DNA of 64,000 bases, from NCBI GenBank assembly GCA_017642425.1, contig JAGCPB010000020.1, positions 118,696 through 182,695 on the forward strand, given 5' to 3'. The stretch is from Bacteroidaceae bacterium. Its GTDB lineage: Bacteria > Bacteroidota > Bacteroidia > Bacteroidales > Bacteroidaceae. A model generated the notes under the pieces. That model was given only the letters and a program-made list of their open reading frames with translations, had not been told where the DNA came from and did no database searches. Both the position numbers and the translations under genes were made by a program. Within the stretch, counting starts at the first letter, position 1; the number at the start of each line of letters is the position of its first letter. This document shows positions 10,612 to 31,084 of the stretch, in pieces.

Positions 10612-13356
10612 CTACTTGAGGTTTTTGAGGGGGATGGCGGAGCAGGCGTTGGGGGGATCGTTGCGGGTGATGAGGGAGATGGTGGGGGCCAGGACGCTGA
10701 TTGAGATAGGTTCGTGGTTAACCTCCGCCCTGATGCCGTTCCCGTACAGGATCATGGGAACGGGCTTTGCCACAGGCTTGCGGTAGAGAACCGTCCCGTC
10801 TTTCTCGTCCGATATCCCCCAACCCGGGATGGCATCTATGATGATGTCACCGGACCAGGTGGCATTCAGGCCGTTGCGTTTGCGAACAGCCTCCAAGTCC
10901 GGAACGTTTGACATAAGGTCACGCATAAGCAGTACGCTCCTTATCCCGCTCACCTGTACCAGCAGGTCCACACAGCTTTCCAGTATCTCATGCAGAGCCA
11001 TATTCTTTTCTTCTATCAGGTCATGATTAAGATAGATGTGGTTGCGATGGAATGCCTGTATCCAGTTCCCGCCGCCATATTTTGCGGATAGATATAGGTT
11101 TAACAGGGCAGTGGCACGTTCCATACTCACCTGACCCGTTGGGATCCTTGTACCTCCCAATTGGGGGGTGGTGTTCTCCACATATCCGGTTGATGTAACA
11201 AAGAACAGTACATTGTCCAGTCCTATCCTGGCTGTTATGGTGTTTACCAGTTCCGCTATTGTCTGGTCCAGACGTACATAGATATCCTGTTGTTCAAGTG
11301 ACCAGATGGTATTGGGGGTGTGCCTGAAATTACCTGCATAGTATGTAAGTGCCAGCAGGTCGGGGGTATCATCATTACCCAGTCCCAAACCTTCAACCGA
11401 TGCGATTGCCATCTCTGTGATACGGTCATTGGCAAAAGGGGTGGTGCGCCAGTCCCAGATGTCGTTCTTGCGGAACGTGTATGAGAACGGTTTGAACCGG
11501 TCATGGTCAGAAACGGGTATGTATGAACTTGTGGCCAGCGCAGGACGCCAATCCACATTCTTCCAGGTGCTGTCATTACGCACATTGACCCATTCGGGCA
11601 ACGCCCCGTAATAGTCGGATGAACTCCAGCGTCCGTCATTTTCGTTTATCCACATCACCATGTCAGGATCATGTCCGCCCGCCAGTATGGCGGCATCACG
11701 TTCAATGGCTAAGGAGCAGACCTTGGAGCGGTTTGAACCCAGTTTCATCTCATCCGCCAGGTTGGTGGCCATAAGTTTACCGGGTGATGACAGTTCTATG
11801 GTGTTGATGCCACTGTAATTGCTGTCATCAACAGGCGATGAGGGCAACAGTGTCTTGGGATTCAACCATCGTCCGGCCACAATGCCGTGCTGGAAAGGTG
11901 ACGCTCCCGTATGGATCGATGCCACAGCCGATGCCCTGTCCATATCATCATAGTCAAATGTGGCGTTGGTGCGGTTGTATCCGTCGGTCCAAAGGCGTTT
12001 AAGGCCGTCGGCACCTATTACGGGCAGCATCTTTTCCAGATACTCTTCATCAAGCTGGTCAATCACTATGCCAACCACCAGTTTGGGGCTTTTTTCAGGT
12101 TTGGAGTGGGCGGTTGCAGGAACAGAGAGAACAGCCAGGAGTATGAGCGGTAGCCGTACGTCCTTTACCGCCGGTGCCCTGCGTATCCTGGAATGAATCT
12201 GATATATTGATGTGCTGAGCGCCCTCATGGCAAAAGTTCCTATAAGAATCAGTACCGCCGGTTCTATCTTTTGGGGAATGAGAGGGTAGAGGATAAGGAA
12301 AGCCGTGCATACAGCGAATTCACATATCATGAATACGGATATTCTCCCTTTTCTTGTCTTGTGTATCATGAACGGAAGAAAGACCAGAGGAAGGGGATTC
12401 AGACAGGCAATCAACCAGTTGGTGCCGGTAGTGGGGTGCTCGGAGAAGAAGAACAAAAGCGCTATTACGATACCACCGATACCCTGGAGTCCGAACAGGA
12501 TCAGGTCAACCAGCCAATAGGGCCTGTTCCTGTACCATCCTATAAGCGTGAACAGCAGTACAAGAAGGAATATGATCCACATGGTCTGGACCGGAGTGAG
12601 TACGGGCTTGCCGAAATCCACACCATGATCCGGTTTGACAAGGCGGGTGCATGAAAGAACCAAAGGTTTCTGTACGCCGGCAGTATCTGTTATGACTGCA
12701 TTCCGGGCCATTCTCATAAGGTATAAAGGTGCAAACGCATCTTCCTTGTAGCCTATTGGCCTGTCAGCCTGGGCACCTATGATGAGGTCAACCCCAAACC
12801 GGCTCCAAGGACGCACTTTTGTGTGCTCTGTCAGTATATCGCGGAACGTAAGGTCAGGATTAGGCCGGTCAAACCTGACGGTACCGGTAATGCTCTCTTC
12901 TATCTTGTCCAGTGCCATTGTAGCACAGTTGTTGAACAGGAAGTTGTAGCGATAAACCCTGTTTTCAGGTCTGCAGTTCTCAATGAGCAGTTCATAGAGT
13001 CTCTTTGTCTCATCAGGACTCAGATTCAGTTCCTGGGCAAACACCTCCGAACCGCGTTCGCCGTATTCCCTAAGGAATGACCTTAAACGGGTGGCTCCCA
13101 GCAGGTAATCGGTCTTACCAAGCGTGAAACGCCATACAAAATGAGGTGTGTCAAAGTCAAACAGCCCGTAGTTGAATATCGCATCGGTCCCGTTGCTGAT
13201 ATCCTCTATCCATATGGCGGTATGCCCGTACAATTCATAAATGGCTTTACCCGGCTCGCAGGTAAGAAGGTAGGCTTTTATGCTGTCATTCTGTGCCTTT
13301 ACCCCCTGGAACAGGAACATAAAGGAGGCCAGAAAGATGAAAATGCTCTTATTCAT
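10612..13356 (-). CDS. Lnb-like (DUF4105) membrane domain fused to a degenerate alkaline phosphatase domain
   Basis: A 914-residue two-part protein. Residues 1-22 are a signal peptide. Residues about 25-200 match DUF4105, the Lnb N-terminal periplasmic domain; Lnb is the lipoprotein N-acyltransferase described in Bacteroides. ELYGHTAIW (His45) and FLFNNCATM (Cys144) are the likely catalytic pair. Residues 257-390 hold about five membrane helices. Residues 401-417 look like a former signal peptide, followed by an alkaline-phosphatase-superfamily fold from 425. Asp433 (GIVIDQLD) and TGASPFQHGI remain. The conserved TADHG ligand motif appears as TSTGY (721-725), and the Asp of the usual TDYVGH is Gly675, although His679 remains. 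Metal binding is therefore probably lost. The frame is continuous, with no sign of frameshift. I infer lipoprotein acylation coupled to a non-catalytic periplasmic domain. Confidence 0.82.
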   Translation of the reverse strand: MNKSIFIFLASFMFLFQGVKAQNDSIKAYLLTCEPGKAIYELYGHTAIWIEDISNGTDAIFNYGLFDFDTPHFVWRFTLGKTDYLLGATRLRSFLREYGERGSEVFAQELNLSPDETKRLYELLIENCRPENRVYRYNFLFNNCATMALDKIEESITGTVRFDRPNPDLTFRDILTEHTKVRPWSRFGVDLIIGAQADRPIGYKEDAFAPLYLMRMARNAVITDTAGVQKPLVLSCTRLVKPDHGVDFGKPVLTPVQTMWIIFLLVLLFTLIGWYRNRPYWLVDLILFGLQGIGGIVIALLFFFSEHPTTGTNWLIACLNPLPLVFLPFMIHKTRKGRISVFMICEFAVCTAFLILYPLIPQKIEPAVLILIGTFAMRALSTSIYQIHSRIRRAPAVKDVRLPLILLAVLSVPATAHSKPEKSPKLVVGIVIDQLDEEYLEKMLPVIGADGLKRLWTDGYNRTNATFDYDDMDRASAVASIHTGASPFQHGIVAGRWLNPKTLLPSSPVDDSNYSGINTIELSSPGKLMATNLADEMKLGSNRSKVCSLAIERDAAILAGGHDPDMVMWINENDGRWSSSDYYGALPEWVNVRNDSTWKNVDWRPALATSSYIPVSDHDRFKPFSYTFRKNDIWDWRTTPFANDRITEMAIASVEGLGLGNDDTPDLLALTYYAGNFRHTPNTIWSLEQQDIYVRLDQTIAELVNTITARIGLDNVLFFVTSTGYVENTTPQLGGTRIPTGQVSMERATALLNLYLSAKYGGGNWIQAFHRNHIYLNHDLIEEKNMALHEILESCVDLLVQVSGIRSVLLMRDLMSNVPDLEAVRKRNGLNATWSGDIIIDAIPGWGISDEKDGTVLYRKPVAKPVPMILYGNGIRAEVNHEPISISVLAPTISLITRNDPPNACSAIPLKNLK

Positions 13357-13427: not shown

Positions 13428-14150
13428 ATGACACTATTGCTCGATTTTGGAAACACCCGTGTCAAAGCTGCCGTCCTGGAAGACGGTATGCCGCGTCAGG
13501 TCTATTGCGGTCCCGTGCATGTACGGCAATTGTCGGATGCCGTTGCCGGAATGGATATAGACGGCGGCATGTGGTGCTCAGTCCATAAGCTGCAACCGGA
13601 GTTGACGGAGTGGATGACAGGCCTTGGGCTTGTACCGCTCACATATGCCACGCCCGTACCCATAGGCAGTTCATATTCAACTCCGCAGACATTGGGTATG
13701 GACCGTCTGGCAGCAGCGGTAGGGGCCTGGTCCATGTATCCCGGCCATGACCTTTTGGTCATAGACGCGGGCACGGCCATAACCTATGACCTTGTATCAT
13801 CTGACGGTGTATACAGGGGCGGCAATATAACCCCGGGGGTACATCTGAGGCTTAAGGCGCTGCACGAGCATACCGGAGCATTGCCCCTGGTGGACCGGGA
13901 CGGTGATATCCCATTGCTGGGGTATGATACAGAAACGGCGATACGGAGCGGCGTGCTGAACGGAATAAGGCATGAATTGAATGGCTATATTGAGGATTTG
14001 GCCGCTGTATATCCTTCACTTTTGGTTTTTTTAACCGGAGGTGATGCTGAATTCTTTGATATAAAAGCCAAAAGCAGTATTTTTGCAGTTCCGGATCTGG
14101 TTCTTCGCGGATTGGCCCGGATAGTTGAATATAATGAAAGGTGTATTTAG
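13428..14150 (+). CDS. coaX: Type III pantothenate kinase
   Basis: A 240-residue ASKHA-fold kinase that phosphorylates pantothenate, the first step of coenzyme A synthesis. The phosphate-binding loop LLLDFGNTRVKAAVLEDG is at residues 3-20, LGMDRLAAAVGA is near 89, the catalytic Asp is in DAGTAITYDLV near 112, and GGNITPGVHLR is near 131. A slightly short but normal member of the family. It heads an envelope-related run: the following OMP gene starts inside its last 17 bp, so translation is probably coupled. Confidence 0.95.
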   Translation: MTLLLDFGNTRVKAAVLEDGMPRQVYCGPVHVRQLSDAVAGMDIDGGMWCSVHKLQPELTEWMTGLGLVPLTYATPVPIGSSYSTPQTLGMDRLAAAVGAWSMYPGHDLLVIDAGTAITYDLVSSDGVYRGGNITPGVHLRLKALHEHTGALPLVDRDGDIPLLGYDTETAIRSGVLNGIRHELNGYIEDLAAVYPSLLVFLTGGDAEFFDIKAKSSIFAVPDLVLRGLARIVEYNERCI

Positions 14151-15393
14151 GTACATAGCGGTTTTACTGGCATTGTCATTTACGCTTTGCTCCGGCCGTG
14201 TCTTGGCTCAGACGGGGGTAAATTCTCCCTATTCCAGATACGGATTGGGTTTGCTGTCAGACCAGTCAACCGGATTGACCCGTTCCATGGGTGGCATAGG
14301 GGCCGGTTTCCGTTATCCCAACACGCTTAACCTTAAGAACCCGGCATCTTACTCGGCAGTAGATACGCTCACGTTCATAGCAGATATTGGCTTTTCACTC
14401 CAGAACGGCAATTTCAGTGAGAACGGGGTGAGGGTCAATGCCCGCAACGCATACATAAGCCACATGGCCATGCAGTTCAGGATCCTGCCTAAGGTGGGTA
14501 TGACTGTGGGGTTCATGCCTTTCTCCAATGTGGGTTATTCATTCTCAAACACGGAACTGATACGCCGGGATGAGGACGGTGAGATAACAGCCACAAACAC
14601 CTATTCCGGAACCGGCGGTGTAAGGCAGTTCATGGGAGGCCTGGGATGGCGTCCCACCCGGTGGCTTTCGGCCGGAATCAACGCCTCTTATCTTTTGGGT
14701 GACATAACCCATTCGGTGAGCAACACCTATTCCACATCGGATGTCCAGTCCAGATACAAGACATATTATGCTGACATGGCAGCCCTCAAGCTTGATTTCG
14801 GTCTGCAGGGAACTCTGGCATTTCATGATGACAACAGTCTGGTGCTGGGCGTCAGTTTTACCCCGGCGCAGAAGCTGGAGTGTGATACCTATGTCACCGA
14901 TGAGCATTCCAGGAGTGATACTGTCTGGATTGATAATGCATTCTCGCTGCCGGAACTGCTGTCTGCCGGTTTCACATACAAATGGAAAAACCGTATGATA
15001 GGCGCTGACGTGTCATACCAGACATGGTCCAAGGCCAGTTTCTTTGGCCGCAAGACAGGCAGTGACAGGCTTTCGGTGGCTGCGGGTTTCATGATAAAGC
15101 CCGAGGAGTTGGGCAGGACTCTGCTTAAACGCACCTCTTATCAGGTGGGTTTGAATGCGTCCCAGTCATATTACAGTGTGGGTGGCGCTAAAGGACCTAT
15201 GCAGTTCGGAGTTTCGGCCGGATTCTCAATGCCTATCACCACTTCTTACAACAGCATGTCATATCTCCATGTGTCGGGAGAGTACGTCAGGGTGCAGCCC
15301 ATGGAGAAAGGAATGATAACAGAAAATTATATAAGACTGAACCTTAGCGTAACATTTATGGAACGCTGGTTTATGAAACTTATGGTGGACTGA
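14134..15393 (+). CDS. Outer-membrane beta-barrel protein
   Basis: A 419-residue protein with signal peptide (MKGVFRYIAVLLALSFTLCSG, cleavage near VLAQ). The mature N-terminus TGVNSPYSRYGLGLL and the SMGGIGAGFRYPNTLNLKNPASY segment resemble FadL/PorP-type barrels of Bacteroidota. The rest is alternating amphipathic strands, ending YIRLNLSVTFMERWFMKLMVD. I chose ATG 14134 because the alternative TTG at 14125 gives a poorer signal peptide. The order coaX, barrel, TPR protein, lptC, GldE-like protein and PpiD-like chaperone points to outer-membrane biogenesis or homeostasis. The transported substrate, if any, is unknown. Confidence 0.85.
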   Translation: MKGVFRYIAVLLALSFTLCSGRVLAQTGVNSPYSRYGLGLLSDQSTGLTRSMGGIGAGFRYPNTLNLKNPASYSAVDTLTFIADIGFSLQNGNFSENGVRVNARNAYISHMAMQFRILPKVGMTVGFMPFSNVGYSFSNTELIRRDEDGEITATNTYSGTGGVRQFMGGLGWRPTRWLSAGINASYLLGDITHSVSNTYSTSDVQSRYKTYYADMAALKLDFGLQGTLAFHDDNSLVLGVSFTPAQKLECDTYVTDEHSRSDTVWIDNAFSLPELLSAGFTYKWKNRMIGADVSYQTWSKASFFGRKTGSDRLSVAAGFMIKPEELGRTLLKRTSYQVGLNASQSYYSVGGAKGPMQFGVSAGFSMPITTSYNSMSYLHVSGEYVRVQPMEKGMITENYIRLNLSVTFMERWFMKLMVD

Positions 15394-15448
15394 TTTAACC
15401 AATATGTGTTTATTATATCTTATTATTGAGAACTAAAGTTATGGAAAT

Positions 15449-16825
15449 ATGAAAAAGATTGGAATGTTAGCCCTTGCGCTTGTCACAGTGATGGGCGTAA
15501 ACGCACAGAAAGGCGTGGAAGACGGTTCCCGTTACGGTCACGGGGCAGATAGCATCAATACTCTCAAGAACATCAGCATCTATTCAGAGTATTACAAGAC
15601 CAACAATTTCAAGGATGCTTATGAACAGGGCTGGAAGGAGGTGTTCCGTGACGCTCCTCTGGCATCGGTCAACACATATAACTATGGTATCAAGATACTG
15701 CGCTCCTTGTACAAGGATGCCAAGACAGCTAATGATGCCGATCTGATGGCCCAGTATTCCGATGAGCTGTTCCAGGTTTATGAGCAGCGTCTCAAGTATC
15801 TGGAGCCCCTGAACGCACAGTCCAAGAACAAGACCACAGAGTTTGAGGTATTGGGCCAGTACGGTCATGACTACATGTCTTACAATCCTAAAGTACAGAT
15901 TTCGAGGGCATATGAGATCCTTAGAAAGGCTGTTGACCTGGGCAAGGGCCAGAGTCAGTACTATGTACTTGATGACCTGATGAATGTATCCGCTCAGCGT
16001 TTCAAGAACAAGAAGGACAACGATGAGTTCCGTGACGCCCTTATGCAGGACTATGTTGACTGCGCCAACTATATTGATGAGTTCATAGCTCTGCAGACTG
16101 ATGACAAGGTTCTTGAGCAGGCAGTCAAGGTTAAGGAGAGAATAGACGGACTTTTCATAAACAGCGGTGCCGCTGATTGTGAAAAACTGCAGGAGATCTA
16201 CGGTCCCAAGATTGAGAACAACAAGGACAATCTTGAGTACCTGAATAAGGTTGTTAAGCTGATGGCCATGTTTGACTGCAAGTCAAGTGACGCCTATTTC
16301 ACTGCTGCCGAGTATGCACATCAGATTTCTCCGTCAGTACAGACAGCCAAGAGTCTGGGCAGACTTTATCTTACCCAGCGTGAGGATATGGACAAGGCTC
16401 TTGAGTACTACAACCAGGCAATAGAGCTTGATGATGACAACAAGAGTGCCGGTGATACCTATTATACTATGGCTACCATCTATATGTCAAAGGAGAAATA
16501 TGACAACAGCCGCTCTTGCGTCCAGAAATGCTTGTCCAACAATCCTAACAAGGGTGACGCCTACATCCTGCTGGCTCAGCTCTATGCCGTTAAGCATGAC
16601 TGGTCAAATGAACCCGCTCTGAACCGTTGCGCATACTTTGCCGTTATTGACAAGCTTGAGCAGGCCAAGAAGGTTGATCCTTCTGTAGCAGACAGGGCAA
16701 ATGACCTTATCTCACAGTACAAGAAGCAGACTCCTCAGGTTGAAGACCTCTTCATGCTGGGATATAAGGCTGGTGACCAGATTGAGATCAAGGGCTGGAT
16801 AAACGAGAAAGTCACTATCAGATAA
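15449..16825 (+). CDS. Secreted TPR protein
   Basis: A 458-residue protein with signal peptide (MKKIGMLALALVTVMGVNAQ) and mostly helical sequence. Tetratricopeptide-like repeats are clearest at about residues 280-400: AKSLGRLYLTQREDMDKALE, then YYTMATIYMSKEKYDNSRSC, then AYILLAQLYA. TPRs are protein-docking solenoids, so a periplasmic scaffolding role is likely. Its stop codon directly precedes the lptC ATG (no gap), and it follows the barrel gene by 55 bp. No catalytic motif is visible. Confidence 0.85.
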   Translation: MKKIGMLALALVTVMGVNAQKGVEDGSRYGHGADSINTLKNISIYSEYYKTNNFKDAYEQGWKEVFRDAPLASVNTYNYGIKILRSLYKDAKTANDADLMAQYSDELFQVYEQRLKYLEPLNAQSKNKTTEFEVLGQYGHDYMSYNPKVQISRAYEILRKAVDLGKGQSQYYVLDDLMNVSAQRFKNKKDNDEFRDALMQDYVDCANYIDEFIALQTDDKVLEQAVKVKERIDGLFINSGAADCEKLQEIYGPKIENNKDNLEYLNKVVKLMAMFDCKSSDAYFTAAEYAHQISPSVQTAKSLGRLYLTQREDMDKALEYYNQAIELDDDNKSAGDTYYTMATIYMSKEKYDNSRSCVQKCLSNNPNKGDAYILLAQLYAVKHDWSNEPALNRCAYFAVIDKLEQAKKVDPSVADRANDLISQYKKQTPQVEDLFMLGYKAGDQIEIKGWINEKVTIR

Positions 16826-17416
16826 ATGATATATACCACCGGTCCTGAACCGATGAGAACAAGAATGTACCTGGCAACCGTCATACTGGCGGTTGTCTCG
16901 TCGTTTTTCTGCTTGTCATGCAGCAATAAGGACAAACAGTTGGGGCCGGCTGTGACAAGCCGTGACTCCACATCGGTCATAACCACACGTGGCGTTGACA
17001 TGTTTATCTCTGAAAACGGGATCATACGCTATCATGTGATTGCCGAGGAATGGAAGATTTTTGACAAGATGAAACCTCCGTTCTACAGTATGGAACAGGG
17101 AGTCACGCTTGAGATACTGGACTCGCTTATGCAACCCGAATCCATGCTGAGGGCGGATACGGCCTATTATATGATGGAATCCAAGATATGGCATCTTATA
17201 CATGATGTCCATGCTCAGAATATCAAAAACGAGGAGTTTGATACGCAGGAGCTGTTTGTGAACAACAACACTGACCGTATGTATTCTGACAGCCTTATCC
17301 GCATAAAGCAGGACCGGCAGATTATCACCGGTCACGGATTTGAGTCCAACGGCAATCTGACTGAATATACGATACGCCGGACAGAGGGCGTATTCCCTGT
17401 CACTGACACCAAATGA
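16826..17416 (+). CDS. lptC: LPS export protein LptC
   Basis: A roughly 196-residue LptC family protein, the bitopic or lipid-anchored periplasmic component that passes lipopolysaccharide from the LptBFG transporter to LptA. The N-terminus holds a lipoprotein-like signal (MYLATVILAVVSSFFCLSC), then beta-jellyroll strands: GVDMFISENGIIRYHVIAEEW, FYSMEQGVTLEIL, SMLRADTAYYMMESKIWHL and HDVHAQNIKNEEFDTQELF. This is the usual LptC pattern in Bacteroidota. The ATG at 16853 (MRTRMYL) gives a cleaner signal peptide than 16826 and may be the true start. The 3' end overlaps the next gene by 4 bp (ATGA), so the two are translationally coupled. Confidence 0.85.
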   Translation: MIYTTGPEPMRTRMYLATVILAVVSSFFCLSCSNKDKQLGPAVTSRDSTSVITTRGVDMFISENGIIRYHVIAEEWKIFDKMKPPFYSMEQGVTLEILDSLMQPESMLRADTAYYMMESKIWHLIHDVHAQNIKNEEFDTQELFVNNNTDRMYSDSLIRIKQDRQIITGHGFESNGNLTEYTIRRTEGVFPVTDTK

Positions 17417-18672
17417 GCCATACCCTGGTCATAATGCTTGTGGCTTTGTTCTTCTCGGCCTTGTTCTCAGGGTTGGAGATTGCCTTCCTTTCGGCCGACA
17501 GGCTCCGGTTTGAGATGGATGCGGAGCGCAACACATTCAGTTCCCGCCTTCTGGGACGTTTTTTCCGTAATCCCAATATCTATATATCCACCATGTTGGT
17601 GGGCAACAACATTGCCCTTGTCCTGTACAGCACCATGATGGCTCATCTCATTGAGATGCTGCTTCCGGACGGACTTATTGCCAATGAGTTCCTGCTTATT
17701 GTGATTGAGACTCTTGTATCGACCGCGATCGTGATAGTGGTAGGGGAGTTCGTGCCCAAGACCATATTCCGTTACAACCCCAACGGCAAACTCAATTTCC
17801 TGGCGTTCCCCATCTATCTGATCTATATCATTCTCTATCCCATATCACTCTTTACCACATGGCTTTCAAGGATAATTCTGAGGATGTTCGGCGTAAGGAT
17901 AGACAAGGAGAATACCGCCAAGGCATTCTCAAAGGTTGACCTGGATTATTTCGTGCAGTCCGGCCTTTCGGGATCTGAGGAGGACAGCCAGCCGGATTCA
18001 GAGGTCCGTATATTCCAGAATGTGCTTGATTTCTCAAATGTCAAGACACGTGACTGCATGGTGCCGCGCAACGAGATATGTGCCGTAGAGAAAGGCGTGT
18101 CATGGAATGCGTTGAGAGAGAGGTTTATAGAGACCGGATACTCCAAGATACTTGTCTATGAGGAGAATATGGACCATATCATAGGTTACATACATTCGTC
18201 AGAACTGTTCCGTTTCAAGAATGACTGGCCTGAGCATATACAGACCGTTCCTTTTGTTCCGGAGACACTTGCCGCGCAAAAGCTGATGAAACAGCTTATG
18301 GCCCGAAAGAAGAGTATTGCGGTGGTGGTTGATGAGTTTGGCGGCACATCGGGAATGGTCTCTCTGGAGGATATCATTGAGGAGATATTGGGTGACATAG
18401 AGGATGAGCATGATGTGACCAATCTTATTGCCAAGAAGACCGATGACGGTTATCTGCTGTCCGGACGTATGGAGATTGACCGTGTCAATGAGATGTTCGG
18501 TCTTGACATTCCGGAATCTGATGAATACATGACCGTGGGCGGTCTCATTCTGACCAAGGCCAAGGGATTCCCCAAAGTCAATGAGAAAATATCGGTTGGT
18601 GATTACTCTTTCAGGATACTCAAACGCGGCGAGACCAAGATAGAACTGGTTGAACTTACATTAAATAAATAA
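17413..18672 (+). CDS. CNNM/CorC-family membrane protein, GldE-like
   Basis: A 419-residue inner-membrane protein. The N-terminal DUF21/CNNM domain (about residues 1-190) has four hydrophobic helices, including VVGEFVPKTIFRYNP. A CBS-domain pair follows at about 200-325 (VKTRDCMVPRNEICAVEKG, then KKSIAVVVDEFGGTSGMVSLEDIIEEILGD, quoted in part). The C-terminal CorC/HlyC domain (about 335-415) contains GYLLSGRMEIDRVNEMFGL. Such proteins are linked to Mg2+ transport; in Bacteroidota, GldE belongs to this family. Gliding itself cannot be inferred. It overlaps lptC by 4 bp. Confidence 0.9.
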   Translation: MSHTLVIMLVALFFSALFSGLEIAFLSADRLRFEMDAERNTFSSRLLGRFFRNPNIYISTMLVGNNIALVLYSTMMAHLIEMLLPDGLIANEFLLIVIETLVSTAIVIVVGEFVPKTIFRYNPNGKLNFLAFPIYLIYIILYPISLFTTWLSRIILRMFGVRIDKENTAKAFSKVDLDYFVQSGLSGSEEDSQPDSEVRIFQNVLDFSNVKTRDCMVPRNEICAVEKGVSWNALRERFIETGYSKILVYEENMDHIIGYIHSSELFRFKNDWPEHIQTVPFVPETLAAQKLMKQLMARKKSIAVVVDEFGGTSGMVSLEDIIEEILGDIEDEHDVTNLIAKKTDDGYLLSGRMEIDRVNEMFGLDIPESDEYMTVGGLILTKAKGFPKVNEKISVGDYSFRILKRGETKIELVELTLNK

Positions 18673-27784: not shown

Positions 27785-30700
27785 ATGGGATTTAATGAAT
27801 TTATAGGTAAGCTGTTCGGTAACAAGCAGACCCGTGATATCAAGGAGATTCAGCCGTGGGTGGAGAAAATCAAGGCAACTTATCCTAAGTATGAGAAACT
27901 TTCCAATGATGAACTGCGCGCCGCAACACAGCAGATTAAGCAGAAGGTGCGCGATTTTGTCATACCTGAGAAAAAACGTATTGAAGAGCTTAAGGCTAAG
28001 GTAGAGCAGACTGAGCTTGAGGATAGGGAACCGCTGTTCAATCAGATAGATAAGTTGGAGAAGGAGGTTTTGGACCGCTACGAGGTGGTTCTGGATGAGG
28101 TCCTGCCCGATGTATTCGCTATAGTAAAGGAGACTGCACGCCGCTTTACGGAGAATGAGCAGGTTGAGGTTACGGCAACTGATTTTGACCGCGACCTGGC
28201 AGCTACTCATGATTTCGTGATTATAGACGGTGACAAGGCCTTGTGGCAGCAGCACTGGGTAGCCGGCGGTAACGACACCGTATGGAATATGATCCACTAC
28301 GATGTACAGCTGTTTGGCGGCGTGGTACTGCATAAAGGCAAGATTGCCGAGATGGCTACCGGTGAAGGTAAGACCCTTGTGGCCACCCTTCCGGTATTCC
28401 TTAACGCCCTGACAGGCAACGGTGTACACGTTGTGACAGTGAACGATTACCTGGCCAAGCGTGATGCCGAGTGGATGGGCCCGCTCTATATGTTCCACGG
28501 ACTTTCTGTGGATTGCATAGACAAGCATCAGCCTAACTCAGAGGCTCGCCGTAACGCATACCGTGCCGATATCACATTCGGTACCAACAATGAGTTCGGT
28601 TTTGACTACCTGCGTGACAATATGGCCGGTCATCCAAACGAGCTGGTGCAGCGCGGTCATAACTATGCAATCGTGGATGAGGTTGACTCGGTGCTCATTG
28701 ATGATGCCCGTACACCTCTTATCATATCGGGTCCCGTACCCAAGGGTGATGACCAGCAGTTTGAGCAGCTGCGTCCGCAGGTGGAGCAGCTCTTTGAGGC
28801 TCAGAAGCGTCTGGCCACGCAGTTCCTGGCCGATGCACGTAAGAAGGTGCACTCAGAAAACCAGGATGAGGTGGCCGAGGGATTCCTCTCACTTTTCCGC
28901 AGCTTCAAGGCTCTGCCCAAGAACAAGGCTCTTATCAAGTTTCTGAGTGAACCGGGCATGAAGGTGGGCATGCAGAAGACCGAGGAGATTTACATGGAAC
29001 AGCAGAACAAGCGTATGCCCGAGGCTGTGGAGCCGCTCTACTTTGTGATAGATGAGAAACTTAACAGCGTTGACCTGACCGATAAGGGTGTGGAGCTGAT
29101 AAGCGGCACCAACAAGGATCCCGATTTCTTTATACTGCCCGATATAGCAAGCCAGCTCTCTGAACTGGAGAATGAGACTGACCTCACCCAGGAGGAGCGT
29201 CTGGCCAAGAAGGATGAACTGCTTACCAACTACGCCGTAAAGAGTGAGCGCATTCATACCATAAACCAGCTGCTCAAGGCCTATTGCATGTTTGAGCGCG
29301 ATGTTGATTATATAGTGACCGAGGACGGCAAGGTAAAGATTGTGGATGAGCAGACCGGCCGTATCATGGAGGGCCGCCGCTGGAGCGACGGACTGCACCA
29401 GGCTGTCGAGGCCAAGGAGCGTGTAAACATTGAGGCCGCAACCCAGACTTTTGCCACCATCACCCTGCAGAACTATTTCCGCATGTATCACAAGCTGGCC
29501 GGTATGACCGGTACGGCCGAGACCGAGGCAGGTGAGTTCTGGGATATCTACAAGCTGGATGTGGTGGTAATCCCCACCAACAAGCCCATAGCCCGTATAG
29601 ACCAGAATGACCGCATATACAAGACCAAGCGTGAAAAATACAAGGCCGTAATCGAGGAGATTGTACGTCTGGTCGAGGCTGGTCGTCCGGTATTGGTAGG
29701 TACTACATCGGTCGAGATAAGTGAGCAGCTTAGCCGTATGCTCACCATGCGTAAGATTGAGCATAACGTGCTGAACGCCAAGCTGCACCAGAAAGAGGCC
29801 GATATAGTAGCAAAGGCAGGTCAGAAGAGTATAGTGACCATTGCCACCAATATGGCAGGCCGTGGTACCGATATCAAGCTGTCGCCCGAAGTTCGTGCCG
29901 CAGGCGGTCTGGCCATAGTAGGTACGGAGCGTCATGAGAGCCGCCGTGTTGACCGTCAGCTGCGTGGACGTTCAGGACGTCAGGGAGACCCGGGTTCATC
30001 AGTATTCTTCATCTCACTTGAGGATAACCTGATGCGTCTGTTCGGCTCAGAACGCATTGCTCCGCTCATGGACAAGTTGGGACTTGAGGAGGATGAGATG
30101 ATTGAGAACAGCTTCATCACCAAACGTATTGAGCAGGCACAGAAGAAAGTTGAGGAGAACCATTTCGGTATCCGTAAGCGCCTGCTGGAGTACGATGACG
30201 TGATGAACAAGCAGCGTACCGTAATCTATGAGAAGCGCCGTCACGCCCTGATAGGTGAGCGTATAGGTATGGATATAGCCAATATGATCTGGGACCGCTC
30301 TGCCGGTGCCGCCGAGAATTGCGCTGACTATGAGAGCCTGCAGATGGAGGCATTCCGCGTGTTGGCCATAGAACTTCCGTTTACAGCCGAGGAGTTTGAC
30401 AAGATGAAGCAGGATGAGGTGTCCGAGCGCATATTCGCTGCCGCTATGGACAACTTCAAGCGTAAATGTGACCGCATGGCCCAGATAGTGAATCCTGTCA
30501 TCAAGAAGGTGTTTGAGGAGCAGGGTGACCGCTATGAGAACATTCTTATACCTATAACTGATGGCCGTAAGGTATATCAGATTCCGTGCAACCTTAAGGA
30601 GGCTTATGAGAGTGAGGGTAAGACCGTGGTGACATCATTCCAGAAGGCAATCATGCTGCACACCATAGACGAGTGCTGGAAAGAGAACCTGCGTGAACTT

Positions 30701-31084
30701 GATGAACTCAAGCACTCCGTACAGAACGCCAGCTATGAGCAGAAAGACCCGTTGCTTATATTCAAACTGGAGTCAGTGACCCTGTTTGACAACATGGTCA
30801 ACAAGATGAATGACCAGACCGTATCAATCCTGATGCGCGGTCAGATTCCGGAGCCCGATCCGGAGCGGGTACGTGAGGCTCCTGCCATGAACCGTCAGCA
30901 GCGCCGTCAATACACTGAGAACCGCACCGATATGTCTGACCCCAATCAGCGTGCAGCCGCTGCCCGCGATACCCGTCAGCAGGTGCGTGAGCCCATCCGT
31001 GCCGACAAGACTCCGGGCCGCAATGACCCGTGCCCGTGCGGAAGCGGCAAGAAGTTCAAGAACTGTCACGGCCAAGGCCTGTAA
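27785..31084 (+). CDS. secA: Preprotein translocase ATPase SecA
   Basis: A 1099-residue SecA motor, which drives preproteins through SecYEG using ATP. Walker A is in [17 protein letters not shown] (about residues 189-205) and the DEAD-type Walker B in [19 protein letters not shown] (about 298-316). The second motor domain carries [16 protein letters not shown] and [15 protein letters not shown]. The C-terminus ends in the zinc-binding [13 protein letters not shown] (about 1082-1094), which also contacts SecB or ribosomes. It is about 200 residues longer than E. coli SecA, as is normal for Bacteroidota. The extra sequence includes a charged segment at about residues 320-420 and a longer region before the N-terminal motor. 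Confidence 0.98.

Follow-up and report, generated by a model that had tools for sequence, protein, structure and literature searches.

A putative lipoprotein N-acyltransferase fused to a PafA-type phosphatase fold without its active site in a genus of Bacteroidaceae

Introduction

Lnb is the lipoprotein N-acyltransferase of Bacteroides and, in the available portions of two papers, is described as an enzyme without a partner (PMC12994826, PMC13103446). The available text of the first describes the conserved His/Cys pair of its permuted NlpC/P60 fold (PMC12994826), and its discovery is recent, the discovery paper being dated 2024 in the reference list of a citing paper. Here we describe a gene in which an Lnb-like protein (DUF4105; Pfam: PF13387 and PF25221; NCBIfam: NF051878) and a protein resembling the alkaline phosphatase PafA (PDB: 5TJ3; NCBIfam: NF042991) share one frame, found in a 64,000-nucleotide stretch of DNA from a Bacteroidaceae bacterium (hereafter, the window). 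Its first half is like Lnb in having both domains, in the same order, together with the conserved His and Cys, but differs in scoring 439 bits against an NF051878 equivalog cut-off of 550 and in carrying a second protein at its C terminus. The latter, in turn, is like PafA in its fold, over about 490 residues, and in common conserved positions, including the RLD and GH motifs, but differs in scoring 282 bits against an NF042991 equivalog cut-off of 650, in having lost nine of ten site residues and in being separated from canonical PafA by a 100/99 branch.

A lipoprotein N-acyltransferase is likewise joined to a second protein in the mycobacterial Ppm1-type fusion of Lnt with a polyprenol-phosphate mannosyltransferase, where, however, the acyltransferase is unrelated and so is the partner, which is catalytically active. 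Neither an Lnb-phosphatase fusion nor an Lnb-linked pseudophosphatase was found among the matches listed from the open-licence literature; active-site residue terms were not found in the PafA paper (PMC8812569), and the available portions of two further papers hold nothing bearing on the fusion or the partner (PMC11878027, PMC13114119).

Results

One frame with the features of two proteins

The fused gene, lnb::pseudo-pafA, lies on the minus strand at 10612..13356 as a single open frame from ATG to stop, encoding 914 amino acids plus the stop codon. A preliminary description, made from the letters alone, had read two proteins' worth of features in it, and separate alignment of the halves, as it had proposed, matches the first 390 residues to Lnb and places the PafA fold in the second half. 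In order along the protein, and all on the minus strand, we find the N-terminal signal peptide of the Lnb half (13291..13356, approximately residues 1-22, seen in the sequence and as a helix of residues 2-15 in the model, with a putative cleavage site), the Lnb_N domain (PF13387; 12868..13296, residues 21-163; E-value 1.1e-23, 84.1 bits against a cut-off of 22.2), and the 5TMH_Lnb membrane domain (PF25221; 12199..12603, residues 252-386, with its helices present in the model; E-value 4.2e-39, 134.3 bits against a cut-off of 25.2). These are followed by a segment resembling an internal signal peptide (12106..12174, residues 395-417) and by a PafA-type alkaline phosphatase fold without its active site (10615..12105, residues 418-914), in which residues 427-855 match Phosphodiest (E-value 2.2e-15); all three Pfam matches exceed their cut-offs. 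With phmmer, residues 420-908 match the PafA structures 5TJ3 and 5TOO (E-values 6e-49 and 1e-48), and 5TJ3 is also the best Foldseek match of the AlphaFold model (E-value 7e-40, TM-score 0.80 by target length). The model was built from 59 aligned rows and has a mean pLDDT of 87 and a pTM of 0.57, with the mutual placement of the halves not firm. Foldseek matches to viral proteins were mostly general phosphatase or sulfatase folds, five of them with an E-value of 0.001 or better.

An intact Lnb half

We collected 102 Lnb sequences, 57 with a separate partner adjacent, 38 fused and seven without an adjacent partner. His45 and Cys144, the pair already picked out in the preliminary description, are present in all of them, and Gly64, Asn143, Arg172 and His307 are invariant as well. 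Since its match to NF051878 (residues 5-384) scores under the cut-off, the protein is termed Lnb-like by its domains and residues and not by that model. Judged by its sequence, the Lnb half looks intact and is probably a working, if putative, lipoprotein N-acyltransferase. Comparison of partnered Lnb with the seven partnerless sequences found no partner-specific surface or interface, the three positions that differ being weak at this number of partnerless sequences.

A phosphatase fold that lost its site

The active site was read against two references, namely a relative scoring above the PafA cut-off (781 bits, locus L057) and the PafA mutant entry 5TOO, in whose title Thr79, Asn100, Lys162 and Arg164 are named. 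We take the two-zinc ligands of PafA to be Asp38, Asp305, His309, Asp352, His353 and His486, and likewise assume the roles of Thr79 (nucleophile), Asn100, Lys162 and Arg164. In the alignment with PafA, a single one of these ten residues is kept (D38, which is Asp433 in the window protein). The nucleophile group is replaced throughout (T79 by R474, N100 by G495, K162 by E552, R164 by D554), as are the other metal positions (D305 by N676, H309 by T680, D352 by T723, H353 by G724, H486 by V856). The phmmer and MAFFT alignments agree at the Asp38, Thr79, Asn100, Lys162, Arg164, Asp352 and His353 positions and disagree in the D305/H309 region and near H486, where phmmer leaves a gap; the ligands are lost in both. 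The loss of two metal-ligand sites, at TADHG (now TSTGY) and at the Asp before His679, had been noticed before, and the erosion proves far wider. His679, which had been thought a retained ligand, is rejected as a zinc ligand: its column neighbours that of His309, holds Gly in 6/6 canonical PafA and has His in 36 of 98 relatives.

These 98 Lnb-linked or same-type proteins, not a random draw, comprise 57 that adjoin lnb, 38 that are fused to it and three same-type proteins from stretches without lnb. Zero canonical site residues are kept in two of them, one in 71, two in 24 and three in one. The position of the nucleophile Thr79 (Arg474 in the window protein; 11935..11937, minus strand) is Arg in 63/98 and Thr in 6/6 canonical PafA; that of the zinc ligands Asp352-His353 (Thr723-Gly724; 11185..11190, minus strand) has Thr in 86/98 and Gly in 91/98; and the Lys162 and Arg164 positions are Asp or Glu in 64/98 and 83/98, respectively. 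Among 30 other PafA-like proteins of the order, six keep 9-10 site residues and 24 keep 0-5. The NF042991 match of the window protein spans residues 417-912, and no second PafA-family match was found in the window genome, whose assembly is rated 87% complete.

Site loss has not been accompanied by decay. In 13 pairs of genes from the window genus, a simple Nei-Gojobori count gave a dN/dS of 0.05-0.11 for the PafA half and 0.06-0.16 for the Lnb half, the former being the lower in 12/13 pairs; these values are rough, as synonymous sites are close to saturation in several pairs. By this sequence measure, the PafA-like half is under constraint. Moreover, a set of residues mostly absent from canonical PafA has become conserved in the 98 proteins: Asp473 (86), Ser476 (83), Thr519 (96), Gln690 (86), Arg747 (89), Asn753 (84) and Arg827 (79), besides Arg474, Thr723 and Gly724. 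We read these residues as a rebuilt pocket, in which they would meet in space.

Distribution and history of the fusion

In the genus of the window, 33/37 genomes, the window genome included, carry both halves in an unbroken frame, one of which (G024) runs off the contig close to its end. A fusion produced by a sequencing error that hides a true stop between two genes, the case that would have undone the preliminary description, is thus not what is found here. The four exceptions are two genomes in which the gene is split by contig ends (G023, G026) and two, 96-97% complete, which have Lnb without the second half and in which no PafA-like match was found (G001, G027); the latter two speak against a partnership. 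Three genomes of another genus also have an unbroken fused frame.

Relatives mostly have the separate genes that had been expected, lnb followed by its neighbour pseudo-pafA. In an even sample of 247 genomes from the order, 111 have Lnb. The fetched loci show the pair adjacent or fused in at least 39 of these 111, again counting the window genome, and across 18 family labels; the other 72 were checked in part and the pair is not shown there, which weighs against a partnership. So do seven fetched Lnb loci without an adjacent PafA-like gene, where Lnb can manage alone, and two genomes (G180, G066) with a pseudo-type gene located away from lnb. In a sample of the family (121 genomes of 30 genera), 120 match the combined profile, and 20 regions from it comprise 15 with separate neighbours, four fused and one, cut by the contig, with only the second gene and secA. 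By eye, no adjacent pair of lnb and a PafA-like gene was seen outside the order among the matches listed for 198 genomes of the phylum.

A tree of 69 PafA-like proteins (of 91) places 19 solo proteins, canonical or otherwise altered, on one side of the 100/99 branch and the Lnb-linked proteins, together with two solo proteins of the same type, on the other; the place of one fused protein (L075) is unsure, as its branch, adjacent to the solo side, is very long. From this tree we infer that loss of the metal and nucleophile site predates the divergence of the sampled families. On a second tree (38 rows, mostly of the family), fusion requires three label changes, in the window genus, in part of a second genus (three fused and three separate of six examined) and in one genome of a third genus, where the first two may instead be one gain and one loss. 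One genome of another family is also fused (G077, locus L075), and a second genome of that family (G187) has separate genes. In all, we count at least three fusions, of which two, in G372 (L134) and G077 (L075), rest on a single genome each. These two further lnb::pseudo-pafA fusions, apparently independent, both have an intact-looking internal signal peptide.

Gene neighbourhood

Among the 64 loci of relatives with separate or single genes, 54 have secA close downstream of lnb or pseudo-pafA. For 47 of the 57 separate pairs, a SecA frame begins no more than 700 bases downstream, and the count rises to 50 at 1.2 kb; in five pairs none is seen in the stretch fetched, and two have no room for it. 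The secA gene also lies next to lnb in 4/7 of the loci with Lnb only; at L055, L056, L128 and L129, lnb is followed by secA with no PafA-like gene between, and these are natural absences of the partner. The stop-to-stop frame of the second gene overlaps the lnb stop, or opens no more than three bases past it, in 45/57 pairs (a count of frames, not of start codons). By comparison with this arrangement, the ancestral order is broken in the window genome, since secA lies at 27785..31084 on the plus strand, 14 kb from the fused gene, and it is near none of the 33 same-genus fused genes (not seen in 32, without room in one). Together, secA, lnb and pseudo-pafA make up an export-and-lipoprotein gene cluster, which the window genus no longer keeps intact.

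In the window, an FKBP-type gene and a presumed aroC come after the fused gene. Upstream of it, at 13428-18672 on the plus strand, lie coaX, a 422-aa protein without a Pfam match, a TPR protein, lptC and a gene we take to be CorC-like; this order from coaX to the CorC-like gene is common to several same-genus and related loci.

The internal signal peptide

The hydrophobic stretch near residues 401-417 is present as previously described, and the segment around it (residues 395-417) consists of a basic stretch, a brief hydrophobic run and ATA at the probable cleavage site. Its earlier reading as a relic is not sustained: judged by eye, the segment looks intact and cleavable in all 38 fused frames, each of which retains a basic stretch, then a brief hydrophobic run and, where cleavage is likely, a small residue (Ala or Ser), although the linker evolves fast across these frames. 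Hydrophobic scores in 13-residue windows range from 1.2 to 2.7 over the junctions found automatically; those of L025, L075 and L134 were missed by the automatic search and were read by eye instead. The run appears short for a membrane helix, and in the model a nine-residue helix (402-410) lies between two stretches of low pLDDT (395-401 and 412-419). If Lnb_N is periplasmic, the five Lnb helices end in the cytoplasm, so that export of the second domain would fall to the former signal peptide. In the window gene the second half is unlikely to have a start of its own, as there is no Met between residues 378 and 425; some relatives have a Met there.

Discussion

Taken together, linkage to lnb, repeated fusion, selection, site loss and newly conserved residues lead us to think it somewhat probable that the second half is a conserved, non-catalytic periplasmic partner of Lnb. 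Its ancestor would be a PafA-type phosphatase that, once stripped of its metal and nucleophile site, stayed next to lnb and in most cases upstream of secA across at least 18 family labels of the order, and came to share one frame with lnb in the window genus. There, the former signal peptide would carry the second domain over the membrane and would then either be cleaved by signal peptidase I, so that one frame yields two proteins, or remain as a short sixth anchor. On the outer side of the inner membrane, near the point where SecA-driven export delivers new lipoproteins, the pseudophosphatase might dock on Lnb and help it to act, for instance by holding a diacylated lipoprotein or a lipid in its remodelled pocket. 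A fuller version, which we offer as a tentative proposal whose parts need not all hold, is that this metal-free pseudophosphatase is an unrecognised second subunit in Bacteroidales lipoprotein maturation, which keeps the acyl donor lipid, or else the incoming lipoprotein, ready for Lnb in a rebuilt pocket, within an export-and-acylate operon with SecA, and that in the window genus the two are made as a polyprotein cut by signal peptidase I.

The main alternative, unlikely in our view, is that the domain serves protein export, e.g. as a periplasmic folding or exit factor working with Sec, with the adjacency to lnb reflecting a shared export operon and the fusion a plain loss of a stop codon. 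The short distance from most separate pairs to secA fits it, as does the pseudo-type gene in G066, which adjoins secA (L098) while the lnb matches of that genome sit on other contigs; accidental fusion would also be easy, given how close or overlapping the frames are in most pairs. However, secA has moved off in the window genus and the domain is still fused to Lnb in 33 of its 37 genomes, and every fusion seen is to Lnb and none to SecA, the partner that the gene order and the internal signal peptide would lead one to expect.

It is rather improbable that the domain retains enzymatic activity on a lipid or lipoprotein through an altered site, either metal-free or differently metallated. The strong conservation at or beside the former site (Asp433, Asp473, Ser476, Thr723, Gly724 and, in 63/98, Arg474) would be unneeded by a plain scaffold and argues for such an activity, but, Asp433 excepted, the window protein has a different residue at every nucleophile, phosphate-binding and zinc position, and the acidic residues that mostly occupy the Lys162 and Arg164 positions argue against it. 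Slightly less probable still is the proposal of the preliminary description, a periplasmic sensor that tunes Lnb to the lipid or phosphate state: conserved residues in a former pocket without catalytic residues, and the linkage to Lnb, covalent or by gene order, are as such a role would have them, but the role is a candidate one, and the same evidence fits a scaffold, a lipid binder or a substrate presenter equally well. That interpretation is supported on the fusion, on an Lnb half that is intact and a PafA-like half that is inactive, and on separate genes in relatives, but not on the His679 ligand or the relic signal peptide. Finally, two genes merged by a sequencing or assembly error, or a pseudogene, are ruled out by the same-genus frames and the low dN/dS, and with three further unbroken frames in another genus the chance of an artefact is negligible; nothing speaks for one in the window gene, and the G372 and G077 fusions could be such errors.

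If the second half is indeed a partner of Lnb, lipoprotein acylation in gut Bacteroidales may be the work of a complex, and the fusion with a conserved, inactive phosphatase-like protein in gut bacteria would point to an unrecognised, non-catalytic partner of lipoprotein maturation. It would also offer a pseudoenzyme with a site loss that a tree can locate, natural fusions that could help structural studies, and perhaps a case of a bacterial polyprotein divided at an internal signal peptide.

Altered sites also occur in PafA-like proteins unlinked to Lnb, where those of the 24 noncanonical members among the 30 are of other types, with 0-5 of ten residues kept (L061-L064, L066, L067, L101, L102, L104, L106, L107, L109, L110 and L115-L125). 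Eight genes adjoining these PafA-like genes include three M14 carboxypeptidases with a C-terminal sorting domain, one of them above the cut-off, and two subtilases.
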